35,482 nucleotides of DNA, taken from a virus. Position 1 is the first letter of the stretch; every line of letters begins with the position of its first letter. The notes under the pieces were generated by a model. That model was given only the letters and a program-made list of their open reading frames with translations. It did not search any database and was not told the DNA's origin. The position numbers and the translations under genes are program-made. Below are positions 1,681-27,909 of this stretch, piece after piece. The stretch covers positions 1-35,482 of IMG/VR virus record IMGVR_UViG_3300032069_000031. The stretch is one strand, 5' to 3'.

Positions 1681-2727
1681 ATGAAAATATTGTCTTACAT
1701 CGTAGCGTTTGCAATCGGGGCCATTGCCTTAATCCCCCCAGTCGATGTTAATTATCCGCTTGCCTTAATGCCATGGGAATATGTTTGCGTTGTTTTATTT
1801 GCCGCACTATTCGGCGGCTATTATTTGTTTACATCAGCGCCAGGAGCTTTTAAAGCCCTTTGTCTTTTACTTTTCGTAGGTTGTTTTTTTAGCAAGGCGC
1901 CGGCAATATCTTTTATCGCTTACGTTTCGTTGGTTGCGGCTGCATACTTTTTTCTTTACTTACGCGATAAGTTTGACTTTAATATTTTAATCAGAGTTTT
2001 AGAGGTTGTCTTTTGGTTGCAGATGATCTTGGCCGTTTTGCAATTCTTCGGTAAAGATACCTTGCTTAATTTTAATAAACCCGAAACCAAATTATACGGC
2101 ACTGTTTTTAATTCTATGCGTTTAGCAACGGTTGTCGCGTGTATCGCTCCTTTCTTAATACTTAAAAATATCCGCTATTTCATTGCACTTTTTGCATTTG
2201 CAATATTTTCTCAATCCATGGGTTTAGTCTTAGCCTTGGCTTGCGGTTTAAGCGTTTATGCTAGTTGTACTTGGCGCAAACAAGCGTGGTGGTTTACCGC
2301 AGTATTATTTATTACCGTTGCGGCATTTTATTTTACAAGCTTACATTGTTTACATAGAGATTGGTTGCACGGACGCAGCATGATATGGTTTCAAACTTTT
2401 AAAGAAGTTTTTGCTTATCCATATACTGGCTGGGGTATGGGTACCTATAAAGTTTTTTCCCCCGTCTTACATAATAGCGAGGTATTTTTGCAGGCGCATA
2501 ACGATTGGCTTCAAATGGCATGGGAGATAGGCTTACCGTCTTTTGTTATCTTATTATTTTGTCTTGCCGATACCGTGCGGTTAATAATCTGGCAAGAGAA
2601 AACCATTGCGCTATGCGGTATTACGATCATCGCCGCGTGTATGTTTTTTCATTTCCCAATGCGTATGTATCAAACCCCACTTATAATGTTAGCTTTCTTG
2701 GCATACTGTAAAAATTTTGGAGGGTAA
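1681..2727 (+). CDS. O-antigen ligase/polymerase-like membrane protein
   Basis: 348 residues with about ten hydrophobic segments. It matches the layout of the WaaL/Wzy family (Wzy_C, PF04932): a long periplasmic loop around residues 225-280 contains GRSMIWFQTFKEV, then YPYTGWGMGTY, then QAHNDWLQMAWEIGLPS, the loop and AHND-x-LQ motif typical of these enzymes. Such proteins polymerise O-antigen or join it to lipid A-core in the inner membrane. In a phage this suggests surface change of the infected cell, blocking superinfection or readsorption of progeny. It lies between decoration and tail-adaptor genes, right after a strong terminator, with no clear ribosome-binding site, so expression is probably low. 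Family call fairly sure; exact reaction unknown. Confidence 0.75.
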   Translation: MKILSYIVAFAIGAIALIPPVDVNYPLALMPWEYVCVVLFAALFGGYYLFTSAPGAFKALCLLLFVGCFFSKAPAISFIAYVSLVAAAYFFLYLRDKFDFNILIRVLEVVFWLQMILAVLQFFGKDTLLNFNKPETKLYGTVFNSMRLATVVACIAPFLILKNIRYFIALFAFAIFSQSMGLVLALACGLSVYASCTWRKQAWWFTAVLFITVAAFYFTSLHCLHRDWLHGRSMIWFQTFKEVFAYPYTGWGMGTYKVFSPVLHNSEVFLQAHNDWLQMAWEIGLPSFVILLFCLADTVRLIIWQEKTIALCGITIIAACMFFHFPMRMYQTPLIMLAFLAYCKNFGG

Positions 2728-7469: not shown

Positions 7470-9002
7470 ATGGCAGAAAATAAAATACCAACTTATACGA
7501 GCCAAGGCAAATTATCTACCGAGCAACCGGGCGCGATGATGTCAACCGAAGGCGCGAAGCAAGCCGGGGAAAATGCAAGAAAGCTTGGCAACGTCATCAT
7601 GGAAATTGGCCAAAAGATTACAGATATGCGCGACGAGCAGGAATATACCAAAGCGACTACTACCTTTAGAAGTCGCATTAACGATATTCACGTTAAAGCT
7701 TTAGCCGATAGCAAAAGGGCTAAAACAGTTTCCGAGATAAACGCTATCCAAAATCAGGCCGTCGAGGATATGAACAAAGCGGGAGCCGATAGCGAGAAGA
7801 TGATATTTTCGCCTAGAGTAAGATCGAAATTTGGCGCTGCAGCCCAAGAAGTTTATTTTGAAAAGAATTTGCATATATCGCAATCCTTGTTGCGCGATCA
7901 GATACAGTTGGGAAAAGATACGACGCTTGAGGCAGTAGACCAGTATATGAATGAAAGTATAAAAAACCCCAGCAATAGGGATTATTTAATTGGCAAGGCA
8001 AGAGAAACAGCGCAAGGTGCGGTTGACGCGGGGTATATTAATCCTCACGAAATAAAAAAATACTTGGACGCGCACGAAGAAAAAGCGGGGGTAGAAACCG
8101 TTAAGCTTGGCATGGAAACTAACCTACAAGGCACAATCGAAGAATTAAAAAAGGGTGAAAAGGGTTCATTCGGATATATGGACGCTAGTAAAAGAGTGCC
8201 TCTATTGCGAGAGGCTGAAAGTAAACAACATAACGATAAGATTATCACTAAAGGAGTTACCGAGGTAATGCGCCAAGCTACAACGCATAGTCTTATGACT
8301 ATGGCGATGACACACACCTTAAAATCTGAAACTCTCGAAGAAAGTTTTTTAAATCAAACTATTAGCGATAGCACTTTTAAAAGTTTGCAAGATAAAATTG
8401 ACGGTGTTATCGGCCCAGATAAATCAAATTCTCAATCTTATTCTGATTTAGTTAATCTTCTGTTAGATGACAAGACAAAGGTTTCTGACGCGCAAGACGC
8501 TCTTTTAAAAGCTAATAAAGATAAAAAAATTTCTGATAAAGATATGACTAAACTATATAATTTCCACATTAGACCTTCAGAGGAAGGCTTTAAAAGTTTA
8601 CACGATCAAGTGCTATCTGAAAAATTACCTAAGACTCAAGAAAATTTAAAAGTGTTAGACTCACGCAAAGAAGCGGATAAACAATTTGAAAAGAACAAGG
8701 AGGCTTTGGGCGCAGTGAAGCAACAGATTGGTGACTATACTCAAGACACGAATAAACAGGCTAAACTTTTTAGCGATACTTTAGATTATGCTGAACAAAA
8801 TAATATGGAATTAGATAAAATTCACCAAGCGGCACAACAAATAATTATTGATAATACTAAAAAAACATTGCAAGGTAAGTTAAAAATTAACACTGTACCT
8901 AAAGGTGGAATGAATATTGTTGACCCAACTACCGGTGCAGAGCGTTGGCTTAACGAAGATTGGACGATAACCCCCACACCTTCAACAAATAATAATGGAT
9001 AA
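7470..9002 (+). CDS. Internal virion protein (gp15-like)
   Basis: 510 residues, almost wholly polar and helical, rich in Lys, Glu, Gln and Ala, with predicted coiled-coil stretches (residues about 30-100 and 130-230) and no membrane segment or enzymatic motif that I can see. Size, order and the DMRDEQEYTKATTTFRSRI-type N-terminus match the middle ejection protein of podoviral cores. The upstream AGGG is modest. The last 8 nt overlap the start of the next gene. Confidence 0.68.
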   Translation: MAENKIPTYTSQGKLSTEQPGAMMSTEGAKQAGENARKLGNVIMEIGQKITDMRDEQEYTKATTTFRSRINDIHVKALADSKRAKTVSEINAIQNQAVEDMNKAGADSEKMIFSPRVRSKFGAAAQEVYFEKNLHISQSLLRDQIQLGKDTTLEAVDQYMNESIKNPSNRDYLIGKARETAQGAVDAGYINPHEIKKYLDAHEEKAGVETVKLGMETNLQGTIEELKKGEKGSFGYMDASKRVPLLREAESKQHNDKIITKGVTEVMRQATTHSLMTMAMTHTLKSETLEESFLNQTISDSTFKSLQDKIDGVIGPDKSNSQSYSDLVNLLLDDKTKVSDAQDALLKANKDKKISDKDMTKLYNFHIRPSEEGFKSLHDQVLSEKLPKTQENLKVLDSRKEADKQFEKNKEALGAVKQQIGDYTQDTNKQAKLFSDTLDYAEQNNMELDKIHQAAQQIIIDNTKKTLQGKLKINTVPKGGMNIVDPTTGAERWLNEDWTITPTPSTNNNG

Positions 9003-12000: not shown

Positions 12001-13359
12001 TTTAAAGAATTAGAGTTAGACGCAACTCGCAATTTAATGATGACGGCTAAGATTGAAGAAAACCAAGACGTATTGCGTAAACTGGTGCAAACAGACGATC
12101 AAGACTTTTTCTCTAAGTTATCGCGTTTGCCCGTATTAAAAGAGATTGGCGGCGTAGCGGAAAAAAATACCCGTTTCCTTTTTGGTAAATTACAGCGTTT
12201 TTATAAAGTATCTGATTATGGCCATACTTTAACTGGTTGGTATGCTAAACACCCCGAAGCGTCCTTAGATGAAATTAAGTTAGCCAAGCAAGCTATCGCA
12301 ACCCATATAAATAATGTCTATGGTGGCCTTAATTGGCAGGCAATGGGGATGACGCGGACAAACCTTTCTTTACTTAGGAATGTTATCCTTGCGCCAGATT
12401 GGACGATTGCCAACTACGAGCTTTTAAAATCGGCTTTTGCCGCAGATACTAAAGGCGCGTTATCTCGTAAGCATATCATTACGGCCATTGTGGGTGGAAT
12501 GATTGCCACAGAGTTAATCAACAAACAATTGACTGGACATTTCACCGATGAGAATAAGCCCGGTCATCAATTAGAAATACAGATAGCCCCAGATGTTTAT
12601 ATCTCGTTGTTACGCGGTGGCGTTGGGGATATTTCCAAGCTGGGATCAATGTTGGTTGAAAGCGGTGTGCCAGGGTTAGCAAGGTTCGCACAAGGGAAAC
12701 TTTCACCTGTAGCCGCCACAGCTTCTGGCGTTCTATCTCAAACTAAATATTCTGGTGTTCCAATATCAAAGCGCGGTTCTGGTATGGGTCAAACCACCCT
12801 AGATAATCTTTTGTATATAGCTGGCGGTTTATCCCCTATACCTATTGGCGGCACAGGATTAACTAATTATTTAACTAATGAAAAAGATAAAAGCTTTGTA
12901 GCCGGTGCGGCTGTTGCTGTTGGTCTTGGCCGATATTCTAAAAGTGATGACAAAAGACTTTTACAAGCGGCTAAATCAGAGGCACAGAAAAAGATTTACT
13001 CTTTATATTCTCAAGGCAAAACGGTTGACGCCGAGAAAGAGGCTACTAAATTTAATGAAAAGCAAATTAAAACAATACAGAATATTTCTAAAGAGCATGG
13101 ATTAGATGAAGCGCCAAGCCTTGAAGTAATTGAAAAATATTTTATTACTAATATTGTGCCAAAAGACGTCACGCCTAAAGATACTGACGTTTTCGCACCG
13201 ACTAAAAAATCTACTCGAAAGCAAGACAAGCTTTCTGGTATACATACCTATGTTCCTTATGGATCTAAAGTAGGTAGAAAGAAAATAAGAATATCTGAAA
13301 ACATAAGCCTTGCTAAAGATTTGGAAGAAGCATATCAAAAGGAATTTGAAAACCAATGA
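8995..13359 (+). CDS. Giant internal virion/ejection protein (gp16-like)
   Basis: 1454 residues, the largest product of the window. Residues about 113-165 are Gly/Ala-rich and hydrophobic, and a second hydrophobic stretch lies near 1158 (ITAIVGGMIATELI), consistent with membrane insertion during DNA ejection. Residues about 442-520 (ILLRADSDIQGLLDKGF to KEGYIPSKEDVVTI) look like a separate folded domain of the kind found in large polyvalent phage proteins. I cannot name it. No clear lytic transglycosylase motif is seen, unlike T7 gp16. The start at 8995 overlaps the preceding gene and lacks a ribosome-binding site, so translation is probably coupled. The stop overlaps an ATG at 13356 (ATGA). 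Confidence 0.65.
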   Translation: MDNFNVETAVATEEKDGKPLIMAEASFNVDNAIVTPPRPTGIYDPKGGSSLGEAPPRLSLRAPRPTTIRGEGVSTTIPSFVQGERPGFAMAEGHIKTPDTLRIGQMEQPSNAQFISGLVDIGMTAAIAYSGVGAVMGLAGGGATALAAGKTLAGMGAGIGAFSYADQVARPHLTEFIGKYLGNDTAPARDTADLMATLVELGVGGAAFGAVGKMITPFKTADFARAHEALQKMGAPRQVTFHPNEVKAILGEVEKPPLPSVTLHPDMVKQANEGTITPEIKKSVDDIILQGGGELMKTRSVIAGSKEFDTKAMVYWNDPKSGSTLATTIDNLTPEYVRQKIEGKQGEFKEPPIITREQTQKMFGFSHSEEMTPEFTAVVKTPEGKVATGASHEEALNKLGMTKGETDPLIEEAKKYKSAEEFVKNISPKSKYSNEGFYQHILLRADSDIQGLLDKGFKKGIGPNAVASWRGEPSDAVQRKYQPKKGQTVILIPEEYIKDTANGPQVKEGYIPSKEDVVTIQKDGESPLEARQRQLTDIWNKAHEGEILKPAVEGKDFQAGFWRKAQLTLPGMGEKPSVLTPEEREDFIKTLNISTDKRKALSLGKHHLGATNQQLAELMKKPYWNKISDVLKNPPPPPEIDPATGLPKEPNKYVLDRPVEFSFGKNDKATSEGMRKEFSGLINEQTVRGNLLREDMQKKLSDKFKVKEKAHLQDLGSRLYIDLGGNMERLNELLLEANDKANFPTVAAHKAEIKEAFKLSPKALDNVKEAGIYYKEAGEVAKKNGVIKEVLENYANRIYKPEPPQDFVKTEAVKQGGIKRSTGHAKHRVFKDVGEAWENGKDTVDAGLSDLVAIHNEELARVNVSRKFLETMSEKGLGAWHKKNNIPDGWAQVGQMEKEFPVKDKDGNPVLGEDGNQLTARSIFTAPKGIAEGLRAITEPNFVKMMTELSKFQKYQGAVKMGKLSLSFFHHLSLTAQMIYEGGVRTLTTDTLRMNKILGSAAFKELELDATRNLMMTAKIEENQDVLRKLVQTDDQDFFSKLSRLPVLKEIGGVAEKNTRFLFGKLQRFYKVSDYGHTLTGWYAKHPEASLDEIKLAKQAIATHINNVYGGLNWQAMGMTRTNLSLLRNVILAPDWTIANYELLKSAFAADTKGALSRKHIITAIVGGMIATELINKQLTGHFTDENKPGHQLEIQIAPDVYISLLRGGVGDISKLGSMLVESGVPGLARFAQGKLSPVAATASGVLSQTKYSGVPISKRGSGMGQTTLDNLLYIAGGLSPIPIGGTGLTNYLTNEKDKSFVAGAAVAVGLGRYSKSDDKRLLQAAKSEAQKKIYSLYSQGKTVDAEKEATKFNEKQIKTIQNISKEHGLDEAPSLEVIEKYFITNIVPKDVTPKDTDVFAPTKKSTRKQDKLSGIHTYVPYGSKVGRKKIRISENISLAKDLEEAYQKEFENQ

Positions 13360-18482: not shown

Positions 18483-18647
18483 CTATTTGATCGGGTGCGC
18501 GTTATGTAATGCTTTTGTGATGTACGTTTTTCTTTTATTCTGTTTTCTCTTGGTCGCTGCATTAGGTTTAATTTGGCACGGATCCGCATAAACGTAAGTA
18601 CGTTTACACGACTTTATACACTTCTTGCAAATATCTATTATTGGCAT
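18483..18647 (-). CDS. Cys-rich basic 54-residue protein
   Basis: It begins inside the last codons of the glycosyltransferase gene (10-nt overlap) without a ribosome-binding site, so it would depend on coupling. Four Cys residues (C7, C10, C14, C24) with C-x2-C spacing, followed by a Lys/Arg-rich tail, suggest a small zinc-binding protein. It is the last gene of the leftward arm. An 8-bp inverted repeat lies within it at 18589-18606. No family recognised. Confidence 0.45.
   Translation of the reverse strand: MPIIDICKKCIKSCKRTYVYADPCQIKPNAATKRKQNKRKTYITKALHNAHPIK
18589..18606. repeat. Perfect inverted repeat
   Basis: TAAACGTA and TACGTTTA are separated by AG. It lies in the zone where rightward and leftward genes converge and could act as a binding site or weak bidirectional terminator. 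It has no T tract. Confidence 0.5.
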
Positions 18648-19723
18648 AGTTTTAATAAAAACTTTAAATTGAATACATCGGCGTTATAAAAAATATATAT
18701 ATTTGTTATCCCTAAAAAAACACCGTAGCCACACATCACTACCGCCGGGATCCAAAACTTTTTTTTCTGTTCTAAAAACTTTGCCGATAATAGCGCTAAC
18801 CCCGGCAGGCAAGGCAAAAGGTATCGCATTATAAAACCAAAATAAGGCGTTAATAATTTCTGCAACATAAACATTGCGATAAAGCAAACAACCCATATAA
18901 TACAAATCCAATTTCTTCTTTTACCCATTTCGATAAATCCAAACATATACACGGGGGCAACTACCAGTAAATTAGATACATAAAATATAGCGGGTCTTGC
19001 CATTGTTTCGTTGGCAAACCAACCGCCCGGGCCGGGGTTATTGTGTAGCCATGTAGGTACAAAACTATTGCAGGAAAAATAATATACAACGTACCACGGC
19101 GCCGCGATCATAACGGCCGGCACGATAAAACGCCAAGACCTTTTTAAATCCTTTGCTAATAAGAATAAGACAACCGGGGCAATGCCTATTGCTGGGAGCT
19201 TTGTTAATAATGCTAAACCATAGGCAGCCCCGGCCCACCCGTAGCGCTTCGTTGTCAATAGGTAGATTGTTGCCGTGCAAAACATTGTAAGCGGCGCGTC
19301 AATCCATATCTTAGTCGAGGCGTGAAGGGCTATCGGGCATAGGGCAAGGATCCCCGCGGCAATCAAGGCAACCCTTTCACTATATAATATCCGGCCTATC
19401 AAGAAGGTTAGCCAAATTGAAAAAAGCATTGCCAGTATTGGAAAAAATAAAATAAGCTTTAAGCCGGTTAATTTTATTAGAAGGGCCAAGCTATAAACAA
19501 AAAGCGGCGGGTGAAAAAATAACGGTGTATCGTAGCACGCTCTTTGTAATCCGAGAAGATCAATTATCGGATCGCTTTTTAAAGAATAGTTTAGCGGTTG
19601 CATGATAACCTTTTGGGCCAAATAGCGGTAGATCTGCTCATCGTTTTCGTAATGCTTCGTAAAGAAAGCCGGGAGCCTTAAAAACAACGCCGTTAATAAA
19701 ATTATATATATTGTATTACGCAT
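18638..19723 (-). CDS. GT-C glycosyltransferase, ArnT/PMT-like membrane protein
   Basis: About 361 residues with roughly ten membrane spans. Shortly after the first span comes NDEQIYRYLAQKV; an acidic pair at this place, in the first periplasmic loop, is the catalytic signature of GT-C enzymes such as ArnT and PMT (PMT_2 families). FFHPPLFVYSLALL and KIWIDAPLTMFCTATIYLL also fit. These enzymes move a sugar from a polyprenyl phosphate to a glycolipid or protein in the periplasm. The ATG at 19723 is preferred over an upstream TTG at 19762. A GC-rich hairpin (19734-19759) lies just before it. With the gene at 1681 it forms a possible surface-conversion pair. Confidence 0.75.
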   Translation of the reverse strand: MRNTIYIILLTALFLRLPAFFTKHYENDEQIYRYLAQKVIMQPLNYSLKSDPIIDLLGLQRACYDTPLFFHPPLFVYSLALLIKLTGLKLILFFPILAMLFSIWLTFLIGRILYSERVALIAAGILALCPIALHASTKIWIDAPLTMFCTATIYLLTTKRYGWAGAAYGLALLTKLPAIGIAPVVLFLLAKDLKRSWRFIVPAVMIAAPWYVVYYFSCNSFVPTWLHNNPGPGGWFANETMARPAIFYVSNLLVVAPVYMFGFIEMGKRRNWICIIWVVCFIAMFMLQKLLTPYFGFIMRYLLPCLPGLALLSAKFLEQKKKFWIPAVVMCGYGVFLGITNIYIFYNADVFNLKFLLKLCQ

Positions 19724-19733
19724 AATGAATACA

Positions 19734-19794
19734 CCCCGGAAAGCCCCTGCCTTCCGGGGCAAGTACTAACAGAAGGGGAAATGTGAAACCCCTT
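19734..19794 (-). promoter_or_regulatory. Two adjacent hairpins between stop and glycosyltransferase start
   Basis: Directly after the upstream stop, AAGGGG and CCCCTT (19773-19794) flank a 10-nt loop. Then a perfect 8-bp GC-rich stem, CCCCGGAA with TTCCGGGG (19734-19759), flanks another 10-nt loop and ends 10 nt before the ATG at 19723. No long T tract follows either. They may act as an attenuator or reduce translation of the glycosyltransferase. Confidence 0.5.
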
Positions 19795-25487: not shown

Positions 25488-25643
25488 CTAGCACCCTTTG
25501 AAAAAACTACCCAAAAACTTCGCGATTGCTCTATCCTGCACCCCGGCGTTTTTATCAAACAGGCAGGCAAGTACCGCCCAAAGCCACAAAGCAATCGGGG
25601 TTAATACGCACACTAACAAAATAACGTTTTTAAGGTTGTCCAT
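25488..25643 (-). CDS. 51-residue single-span membrane protein
   Basis: ATG at 25643 with AAGGGGG 5 nt upstream, overlapping the end of the HNH-zinc-ribbon gene by 14 nt. One membrane span at residues 6-29 (NVILLVCVLTPIALWLWAVLACLF), then a basic C-terminal helix. It could be a superinfection-exclusion or lysis-related peptide; no family recognised. Confidence 0.6.
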   Translation of the reverse strand: MDNLKNVILLVCVLTPIALWLWAVLACLFDKNAGVQDRAIAKFLGSFFKGC

Positions 25644-26181
25644 GTTCGCCCCCTTCTTTATCTTTGGCCTCGTCTTTCTTAACATCGGCCGACCGCGCCC
25701 CACACGCCCGGCATACAAATACGCCGGATTTAATAAAATAGCCAGTCGATGAACCGCAATAAGCGCACCCTTTTATTTTTAGATCAGCTTTACCTTGCCC
25801 TGTTCTTGCGCCGCACTTGCGGCAAACATGGACACCCGATGTTAACGTATAGCCATTATAAGAATGACACTCCAAACATTGTTTTAGGTTTTTATTATAT
25901 TCTTCAAGGGTAATCCCGCGCTTGTCGCTTGCTGCTTTGCGTGTATTGTCTATTAGCTCAACAAATCTACAATTATTTATATCATAGTTTCCGTTATTGT
26001 TTATCCTGTCCACACTGGCGCATTTTAGTAATGCCGCGCTATCACGTTTCCATAAAAACTTTAATTCTTTAAGGGTTAGTAAAGCTTTAATCCCCCGGCC
26101 GCCATAACGTTTATAAGAAGTGTTTTTAGGGTTGTTACATCTTTGGCGTATCTGGTAAAGGCGCTTTGATAATTTTTCCAT
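25630..26181 (-). CDS. HNH endonuclease fused to two zinc ribbons
   Basis: 183 residues from ATG 26181. The N-terminal half has RLYQIRQRCNNPKNTSYKRY, GGRGI, and SVDRINNNGNYDINNCRFVE, the layout of phage HNH homing-type nucleases. The C-terminal half contains two similar Cys4 ribbons: CLECHSYNGYTLTSGVHVC followed by RKCGAR, and CAYCGSSTGYFIKSGVFVC followed by RACGAR, evidently an internal duplication. The highly charged tail ends GGEHGQP. It may be a homing endonuclease or a DNA-binding protein that has adopted an HNH core. The ribosome-binding site is weak. Confidence 0.72.
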   Translation of the reverse strand: MEKLSKRLYQIRQRCNNPKNTSYKRYGGRGIKALLTLKELKFLWKRDSAALLKCASVDRINNNGNYDINNCRFVELIDNTRKAASDKRGITLEEYNKNLKQCLECHSYNGYTLTSGVHVCRKCGARTGQGKADLKIKGCAYCGSSTGYFIKSGVFVCRACGARSADVKKDEAKDKEGGEHGQP

Positions 26182-26183
26182 TA

Positions 26184-26339
26184 TTAAAACCCCATAATTA
26201 TTAAAATGATCCCGGCCGCTACAAATAGCCCCAGCGCCCACAACCGCGCCACGTTTACATTGTGCTCGTTGCAAGCCCGGTTATAGGCCTTCTCGTCGAG
26301 GTAAGCGCCGTAAAGATAGTCTATGATTTTGGGCTTCAT
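26184..26339 (-). CDS. 51-residue membrane-anchored protein
   Basis: ATG at 26339 with AGGGGGG 4 nt upstream. A polar N-terminal half (KPKIIDYLYGAYLDEKAYN) is followed by one span (LWALGLFVAAGIILIIMGF) that ends the protein. Its stop lies 2 nt before the next ATG. It lies just downstream, in the leftward sense, of the gene that contains the solitary CRISPR repeat. No family recognised. Confidence 0.6.
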   Translation of the reverse strand: MKPKIIDYLYGAYLDEKAYNRACNEHNVNVARLWALGLFVAAGIILIIMGF

Positions 26340-26369: not shown

Positions 26370-26990
26370 TTACCGCTGCAATAAGGTCGCGCCCCGTGTG
26401 GGCGCGTGGATTGAAACATCGTTAGCCAACAACGATAAACCATATTCTAAAATTTTGATTTGCTTTTGTTTTTTTGCGTCTGCGGTTGCTGCTGCGAATG
26501 CTGCGTCTGCTGCGAATGCTGCGTCTGCTGCTGCGTGTGCTGCGGTTGCTGCTGCGTGTGCTGCTGCGAATGCTGCGTGTGCTGCTGCGTCTGCGGTTGC
26601 TGCTGCGAATGCTGCGTTTGCTGCTGCGAATGCTGCGTCTGCTGCTGCGTGTGCTGCTGCTTTATTTTCTGCCGTAGGGTTTTTTAGATATGCTTTCGCG
26701 GCCCCTATTGCCTTACGAGGCCTATCGTCTTTAGGATATTGCTTTTCGTAAATATCTATTACCTGCTCTGCGGCATAGATAGCGTAAGTAAGATATTGTT
26801 TGCGTTCCATAACGCGAACGATAAGCCAATTTGACCAATCGTATTTTTTATCGGTCATAAGGTTTCTGATAAGCGGTACAGCCTCAAGGCTAAGCCAGCC
26901 TTTATCAGCGACATAACGATAGCCGTCCGTACATGCTGAATGCTTTTTTAATAATTCTGCTGTTACTTTGCTATATTTGGCTTTGCTCAT
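26370..26990 (-). CDS. Ala-rich Imm-5-like ("putative immunity") protein
   Basis: 206 residues. LSLEAVPLIRNLMTDKKYDW, SNWLIVRVMERKQYLTYAIY, AAEQVIDIYEKQYPKDDRPRK and AIGAAKAYLKNPT match a widespread phage/bacterial family annotated as putative immunity (Imm-5-like). Residues about 110-175 are Ala-rich repeats (AADAAFAAANAAF type). The final residues, VSIHAPTRGAT, are not family sequence: they are the antisense translation of the CRISPR repeat at 26386-26417. A promoter at 27046-27074 and GGGGG before the ATG drive it. Function in phage unknown; the natural end probably lay near KILEYGLSLL. Confidence 0.7.
   Translation of the reverse strand: MSKAKYSKVTAELLKKHSACTDGYRYVADKGWLSLEAVPLIRNLMTDKKYDWSNWLIVRVMERKQYLTYAIYAAEQVIDIYEKQYPKDDRPRKAIGAAKAYLKNPTAENKAAAHAAADAAFAAANAAFAAATADAAAHAAFAAAHAAATAAHAAADAAFAADAAFAAATADAKKQKQIKILEYGLSLLANDVSIHAPTRGATLLQR
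26386..26417 (+). CRISPR. Solitary type I-C-like CRISPR repeat (possible RNA anti-CRISPR)
   Basis: A single 32-nt unit with all marks of subtype I-C repeats: it starts GTCGC, has a 7-bp stem CGCGCCC/GGGCGCG (26388-26394 with 26400-26406) around loop CGTGT, and ends GTGGATTGAAAC. There is no second repeat within one spacer length on either side and no cas gene in the window, so it is not an array. Phage-borne solitary repeats are known to act as RNA anti-CRISPRs by decoying Cas proteins. The functional sense is rightward, against the surrounding leftward genes; I see no strong rightward promoter. A 6-bp hairpin (26418-26436) follows directly. Confidence 0.85.
26476..26670 (-). repeat. GC-rich Ala-codon repeat tract
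   Basis: About 195 bp of short imperfect repeats built from GCTGCG and related hexamers, coding the Ala-rich segment of the Imm-5-like protein. Long open frames on the other strand here (Cys-rich or Leu/Arg-rich) are by-products of the repeats. Confidence 0.85.
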
Positions 26991-27143: not shown

Positions 27144-27755
27144 CTAGTGGTGCAATAAATCGTCGTTAGCCTTCTTGATCGCGGCCAACTCGTCCGGGGT
27201 AGGCTCCAAGATCGCTTGGCCCTTGTGATCTATGCCCCTAACGCCCGGCGGAAGGCTGCTATCTATACTTATACTATTATTGATTATATTAGTCTTAATC
27301 TTACTTTTAGGAATATAGTTATTTGATTGTTCGGATCTCTCAATATCTTTATTACCTATACCTGTACCCTTACGTAACCCCATGGTAGGGGTTAGCATAC
27401 CCTTAAACTCTTTAGGGTAAAACTCCCCGAAAGCTGCCTCATGCGTTAGCAACTCCCGGATAATGGCACGGTGGCAGCCAATTTTAGGGTTTAGAGGCAA
27501 ATTCTTTTGGTGTTTTACGAAGTTTTTAACCCAGGCCCAGCCGTTTTTAAAGACAATACTATGGTTTAACTCTAAAATATGCGTTTCCGGCAGGATCCCG
27601 GGAAGGTATAAATTCAAAATCTTTGGGTTGATCTCGTAAAACCCCGCAATCGTGCAATGATCGCAAAGGTAAAAAAACAGCAATTTTCCGTTGTTGCTTA
27701 CGTTACAAAACCACGGATCCGACCATTTTTCGCTTAAAGTCAAACGGTATGCCAT
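27144..27755 (-). CDS. Replication-initiator-like protein
   Basis: 203 residues. LSEKWSDPWFCNVSNNGKLL, FFYLCDHCTIAGFYEINPKI and GWAWVKNFVKHQ match the N-terminal winged-helix domain common in phage replisome-organiser/DnaD-like initiators; the C-terminal 80 residues are polar and poorly ordered. It is the first gene of the leftward arm, behind the strongest promoter in the window, with GAGG 6 nt before the ATG. It probably opens the phage origin and recruits host replication proteins, since no phage polymerase, helicase or primase is seen. Confidence 0.62.
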   Translation of the reverse strand: MAYRLTLSEKWSDPWFCNVSNNGKLLFFYLCDHCTIAGFYEINPKILNLYLPGILPETHILELNHSIVFKNGWAWVKNFVKHQKNLPLNPKIGCHRAIIRELLTHEAAFGEFYPKEFKGMLTPTMGLRKGTGIGNKDIERSEQSNNYIPKSKIKTNIINNSISIDSSLPPGVRGIDHKGQAILEPTPDELAAIKKANDDLLHH

Positions 27756-27881: not shown

Positions 27882-27909
27882 ATAATACTGTAAAAATAAA
27901 ACTTGTCAA
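27882..27909 (-). promoter_or_regulatory. Leftward early promoter
   Basis: Read leftward: TTGACA (27909-27904), 16-nt spacer, TATTAT (27887-27882); near-consensus. It drives the replication arm after a leader of about 120 nt that contains a hairpin (GGGC/GCCC enclosing TAGC/GCTA, 27799-27821). Confidence 0.8.

Follow-up and report, generated by a model that had tools for sequence, protein, structure and literature searches.

A solitary type I-C CRISPR repeat antisense to a phage early operon, a candidate RNA anti-CRISPR

The repeat unit and its surroundings

The whole stretch of DNA analysed here (the window), a 35,482-base viral record, encodes a major head protein, a tail protein, a head-tail adaptor and a terminase. 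The portal protein has its best matches in Pelagibacter podoviruses at ~29% identity, and in the explanation we favour the phage is proposed to be short-tailed and podovirus-like. A leftward region of the genome carries RecT, two exonucleases, a VRR-type nuclease and an HNH endonuclease, and inside this region lies a single 32-nt unit with the sequence of a CRISPR repeat (Table 1). The unit reads on the plus strand and all neighbouring genes lie on the minus strand, which places it antisense to the leftward early operon. In the leftward mRNA the gene of the 51-aa protein starts 46 nt past the anti-repeat; no family match was obtained for this protein, and no anti-CRISPR family was matched among the neighbours. 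Elsewhere in this short phage genome, a Wzy_C-like (O-antigen ligase) gene just below the Pfam cut-off (window 1681-2727) and a PMT_2-like membrane glycosyltransferase gene (window 18638-19762) point to a possible surface modification.

Table 1. Features at and around the repeat unit, with window coordinates.
Feature	Position	Strand	Basis
Sigma70-like promoter TTGACA-16-TATTAT, reading into the operon with the anti-repeat	27882..27909	-	11/12 consensus count
First gene of the leftward early operon, function without assignment	27144..27755	-	
P0001, Imm5-like Ala-rich phage protein, 206 aa; last residues encoded by repeat and flank	26370..26990	-	PF21805, E 6.6e-9
Solitary type I-C CRISPR repeat (SRU), GTCGCGCCCCGTGTGGGCGCGTGGATTGAAAC	26386..26417	+	Sequence; exact array matches
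7-bp stem CGCGCCC/GGGCGCG with 5-nt loop	26388..26406	+	RNA fold; compensatory changes keep pairing across phage I-C SRUs
Anti-repeat, predicted to be part of the leftward early mRNA; codes for VSIHAPTRGAT, the tail of ORF 26370-26990	26386..26417	-	
Small hairpin ATCGTT-AGCCAAC-AACGAT, directly 3' of the repeat	26418..26436	+	Sequence
Putative membrane protein, 51 aa, with Shine-Dalgarno-like AAAGGGGGG	26184..26339	-	Gene call
HNH endonuclease	25630..26274	-	phrog_3377, E 5.9e-17

An initial annotation of the window had described a 32-nt unit with this stem and a type I-C 3' end, present once and unaccompanied by a cas gene. All of these points were confirmed here, the solitary state by copy searches over the record and by protein scans on a subset of the ORFs. 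The repeat RNA folds with -14 kcal/mol, and both its hairpin and its 3' handle are intact as judged by the fold and by identity to array repeats. The 3' end of the unit, GTGGATTGAAAC, occurs once in the window and has a chance expectation of 0.19 matches at one mismatch or fewer; as the full 32-mer is found exactly in the arrays of other organisms, chance cannot account for the unit. Allowing up to 3 mismatches, no second copy turned up in the 35,482-base record, allowing up to 10 gave none either, and the 160-nt flanks held no partial repeat (local scores 8/7). Scans with Pfam, PHROGs, NCBIfam and PADLOC, covering the proteins of a subset of the ORFs, detected neither a cas gene nor an integrase. 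An Rfam search gave no match, nor did a comparison of the 32-mer with known phages, and no target-site duplication or duplicated flanks were seen at the unit (p = 0.92). The small hairpin directly 3' of the repeat was considered as a terminator and rejected, as it has no T-run. An assembly join at the repeat is unlikely: at ~30-50 nt on one side stands the conserved end of P0001 and at 46 nt on the other the start of a co-directional gene, and usual assembly k-mers are longer than 32 nt.

With a single copy, the phage does not carry a CRISPR array or mini-array, which has at least two repeats separated by spacers. The unit could still be what is left of a mini-array targeting other phages from which one repeat was lost, given that viral mini-arrays with host-type repeats exist (PMC11656645). 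This reading is largely refuted by the lack of a partial second repeat, by flanks that, taken as spacers, have no exact match in IMG/VR and by the adjoining downstream sequence, which is a conserved gene end and no spacer; we consider it the least probable of all.

The unit lies inside the 3' end of the P0001 ORF, whose frame reads through it and goes on as ANDVSIHAPTRGATLLQR, where VSIHAPTRGAT is the repeat read backwards. The homologue in MetMV (Methanosarcina virus) stops 7 residues past a KILxYGLxLL-type motif, and 20 of 21 complete homologues from viral contigs end 0-8 residues past it; the remaining one (L127) ends 16 residues past the motif with an unrelated tail. None of the 21 has a repeat at this locus. 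As the homologues have no such tail and the frame reads through the repeat, the repeat has come to lie at the very end of the gene, with the conserved portion of P0001 intact and the tail non-conserved. Neither this opposite-strand ORF (26370-26990, -) nor the antisense placement appeared in the initial annotation. The unit is therefore not intergenic, a position demanded by the published SRUFinder search and not by the Racr mechanism. Since SRUFinder masks ORFs called at ≥80% confidence before searching for repeats (PMC10651486) and the unit lies within an ORF, that search probably missed it.

Type I-C identity and solitary repeats in other viruses

When one genome of each bacterial and archaeal species was scanned for exact matches, the 32 nt were recovered unchanged in ten stretches belonging to eight cellular genomes, the 32/32 matches being array repeats of Bacteroidales, Verrucomicrobia, Achromobacter, Prevotellaceae, Syntrophaceae, Paracidovorax and UBA3734. 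Copy numbers were 81 and 59 on two Bacteroidales contigs, 12 on a Verrucomicrobia contig and 10 in Achromobacter, several of these being long arrays. Cas5d, the type I-C processing enzyme, is present in all eight genomes with the identical repeat, and an array on a plasmid of Nitratidesulfovibrio vulgaris DP4 matches at 90.6%. A 32-nt repeat that ends in GTGGATTGAAAC and occurs in arrays of Cas5d genomes is what characterizes the type I-C family, and the unit has these properties. On the exact array matches, the presence of Cas5d in all eight genomes and the likeness to the DP4 array, the phage unit is at the sequence level a true type I-C repeat and no look-alike, so that the identity claimed initially has held in the comparison with array repeats.

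IMG/VR was searched with a pattern of the I-C stem and handle in which pairs 6-18 and 9-15 and the loop were left free. This gave 132 matches including the window, 70 of them array-like, 57 solitary and 5 at contig edges; by distinct flanks there are 53 solitary units, spread over many unrelated phage contigs. Classifiable units were those with neighbours agreeing in strand according to a home-made, rough gene caller (n = 46), and 36 of these are sense to the genes and 10 antisense, the window unit included (binomial p = 0.00016). Most units sit in tight operon gaps, often just 3' of a stop codon or just 5' of a ribosome-binding site, a placement compatible with the kind of shared transcript demonstrated for AcrIC5-RacrIC1. 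Among the antisense units, several directly adjoin the stop codon of a gene in a leftward operon (gaps of -1 to 11 nt); few antisense neighbours have database support, namely terminase genes (L030) and a TnpB-like gene (L039). The free pair 6-18 is Watson-Crick in 50/53 units and pair 9-15 in 48/53, with several pair types; such conservation is as expected of RNA stems and may also be inherited from host repeats. No clear excess of sigma70-like promoters was found directly upstream of sense or antisense units.

Several of the other contigs show further arrangements. In L035 (IMGVR_UViG_3300032053_000217, 8764-8795) a solitary I-C repeat stands between the copies of a perfect 34-bp direct duplication of spacer length, as if Cas1-Cas2 had integrated a repeat-length fragment with a target-site duplication, and L056 has an imperfect 26-bp duplication in a similar register. 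The phage contig L003 (IMGVR_UViG_3300020195_000003, 1026-1635) carries two full I-C repeats 578 bp apart with a stem-only copy, GGTCGCGCCCCGTGCGGGCGCGAC, between them (~1093), and the 300-kb phage contig L002 (IMGVR_UViG_3300036766_000194, 12191-12476) has one full I-C repeat with a shortened copy, TCGCGCCCCGGCGGGCGCGTGGATTGAAA, ~250 bp upstream. In L039 (1076-2438) the solitary repeat is 122 nt from the 3' end of the antisense TnpB-like (IS605 OrfB) gene, and in L042 (9907-9938) an I-C-type repeat lies in sense direction within an 868-aa ORF. Many sense solitary repeats (L020-L097) stand directly 5' of a Shine-Dalgarno sequence and start codon, where cutting by Cas5d could affect the mRNA of the downstream gene too.

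Predicted transcribed strand, relatives and possible functions

The best promoter-like site by consensus count within 16-35.5 kb is the leftward one (27909-27882). On the plus strand upstream of the unit no promoter-like site scored above shuffled sequence (p = 0.78), in scans with the sigma70 consensus, which applies to some hosts and not to others; a rightward promoter may therefore exist. Given the leftward neighbours, the predicted leftward promoter and the lack of a recognised rightward site, the anti-repeat is on this evidence the strand to be expected in phage RNA, and the rightward transcription that the initial annotation had put forward is unsupported.

The unit is absent from the nearest phage relative as well as from the complete P0001 homologues, so that its acquisition looks recent; conservation among related phages, a check proposed at the outset, was not borne out. 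Related pairs of phages with solitary repeats are near-identical, which makes them uninformative on conservation. Spacers of the arrays with the identical repeat gave merely chance-level matches of 12-22 nt to the phage. Searches for spacers against the phage in 155 genomes (the class of the Syntrophaceae genome), 344 genomes (the order of the Bacteroidales genome) and 338 genomes (the phylum of the Verrucomicrobia genome) returned nothing spacer-like, most of their matches falling on the repeat or in the Ala-rich coding region, and the first 16 kb of the phage had no match in the 155-genome group.

We tentatively place first the reading that the unit is a captured host I-C repeat acting as an anti-I-C RNA, most likely in a Racr-like manner. 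The phage would have captured one intact repeat from a type I-C array of its host and kept it where an early gene ends; Cas5d would bind and cut the hairpin and 3' handle of a rightward RNA, and the repeat RNA would then tie up Cas5/Cas7 in unproductive complexes. A type I-C system in the host of this phage, the existence of the rightward RNA and inhibition by it are points that we infer. The reading is favoured by the exact array identity, the sense majority among phage units (36:10), the Watson-Crick free pairs, the published inhibition tests of RacrIC1 (PMC10651486) and the location in a region with RecT, exonucleases and HNH, and an unaltered repeat within a compact genome points to either recent capture or selection. 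Against it stand the unit's orientation, opposite to that of the early operon, the failure of the scans to recognise a rightward promoter, the position within an ORF, unlike the published intergenic units, the lack of an anti-CRISPR family match nearby, relatives that do not carry the unit and the lack of a spacer against the phage in the genomes searched. The Racr interpretation given initially thus keeps its type I-C identity, phage origin, solitary state and published mechanism and lacks support on rightward transcription and conservation in relatives. Antisense placement and ORF overlap weaken a simple Racr reading and open a less likely one, set out below.

Second in rank, and rather unlikely, is that a host repeat was recently copied into the tight 3' end of the gene and is harmless and functionless. 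The ORF reads through and merely adds a non-conserved tail to an intact conserved protein, and both the relatives without the unit and the lack of a recognised rightward promoter would agree with a neutral capture. It is less easily reconciled with a letter-perfect repeat in a compact phage genome and with the many independent phages that carry such units in a strong orientation bias, which neutral units would not show, although this bias is uninformative on the antisense minority.

Third, and unlikely, is an action of the leftward early mRNA itself, which includes a 32-nt exact complement and could pair with host repeat RNA, either in the repeats of the pre-crRNA, hiding the Cas5d hairpin, or in mature crRNA at its handle and 3' hairpin; on this view the orientation would be purposeful. 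The predicted 11/12 leftward promoter, the leftward neighbours and the 10/46 classifiable I-C units in antisense orientation, frequently located right next to a stop codon of a leftward operon, would suit such pairing. Cofolding with the repeat gives -81.4 kcal/mol compared with -14.0 for the repeat and -26.8 for the anti-repeat alone, a gain of ~40 kcal/mol over the separate folds, thermodynamics alone being no proof of function. We found no precedent in the literature searched, the predominance of sense units speaks for the sense RNA as the form that is usually active, stable hairpins on both strands slow pairing, and antisense units may be tolerated insertions. More doubtful again is the wider proposal that the anti-repeat mRNA, in the 3' end of a coding gene, is itself the inhibitor and that the ~1/5 of phage I-C units in antisense form a second class of RNA anti-CRISPR.

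Two further readings are improbable. The unit might act as DNA, as a decoy or docking site where, for example, Cas1-Cas2 might integrate spacers off the array or the host array might recombine. Such a role would be independent of orientation and promoter, but docking of Cas1-Cas2 usually needs an array leader and none is recognisable beside the unit, no integrase was found in the protein scans and the flanks are not duplicated. In its favour, PMC10651486 mentions the integration of viruses into arrays by way of repeats. Slightly less probable still is Cas5d-dependent control of the phage's own mRNA through a processing site in the transcript: many sense units elsewhere stand just 5' of a ribosome-binding site, but the mRNA expected here is the complement, in which the Cas5d handle is not in the right sense.

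Comparison with known RNA anti-CRISPRs and viral repeats

If active in the usual way, the unit would add one more phage to those with a known strategy and show that ORF-masking searches miss some units. Should its orientation prove functional, phages would possess a second RNA-based means of countering CRISPR, working as antisense to the repeat instead of mimicking it, and the orientation bias from the census offers a direct handle for testing it.

Solitary phage repeats acting as RNA anti-CRISPRs are an established mechanism, as had been stated initially: nine candidates were tested, with I-C among the subtypes, and RacrIC1 and other Racrs showed inhibition (PMC10651486). The unit agrees with the definition of a Racr as a solitary unit on a mobile element that closely matches a known CRISPR repeat. 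Compared with type I-C (Dvulg) array repeats it has the identical 32 nt (e.g. L004, L005, L008, L009) but is present as one copy, without spacers, leader or cas genes. Mini-CRISPR arrays carried by viruses (PMC6858448; review in PMC11656645) likewise place a host-type repeat in a virus, whereas the window unit has neither a second repeat nor a spacer. RacrIF1 from a Thiocystis violascens prophage (PMC10651486) is also a solitary repeat with hairpin and handle, but it is of type I-F and intergenic, and RNA-seq and RACE have shown that it is expressed from a promoter of its own. A further likeness is to RacrIC1 from a Bifidobacterium pseudocatenulatum prophage (Camara-Wilpert et al. 2023, PMC10651486), a solitary I-C repeat mimic in a phage genome that lies 11 nt downstream of AcrIC5 and was shown to be on the same transcript; the window unit differs from RacrIC1 in being antisense to its operon, in overlapping an ORF and in lacking a known Acr neighbour. 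The Racr-type kind is thus already known (PMC10651486; reviewed in PMC11656645), and the antisense placement and ORF overlap are the unusual parts of this case.
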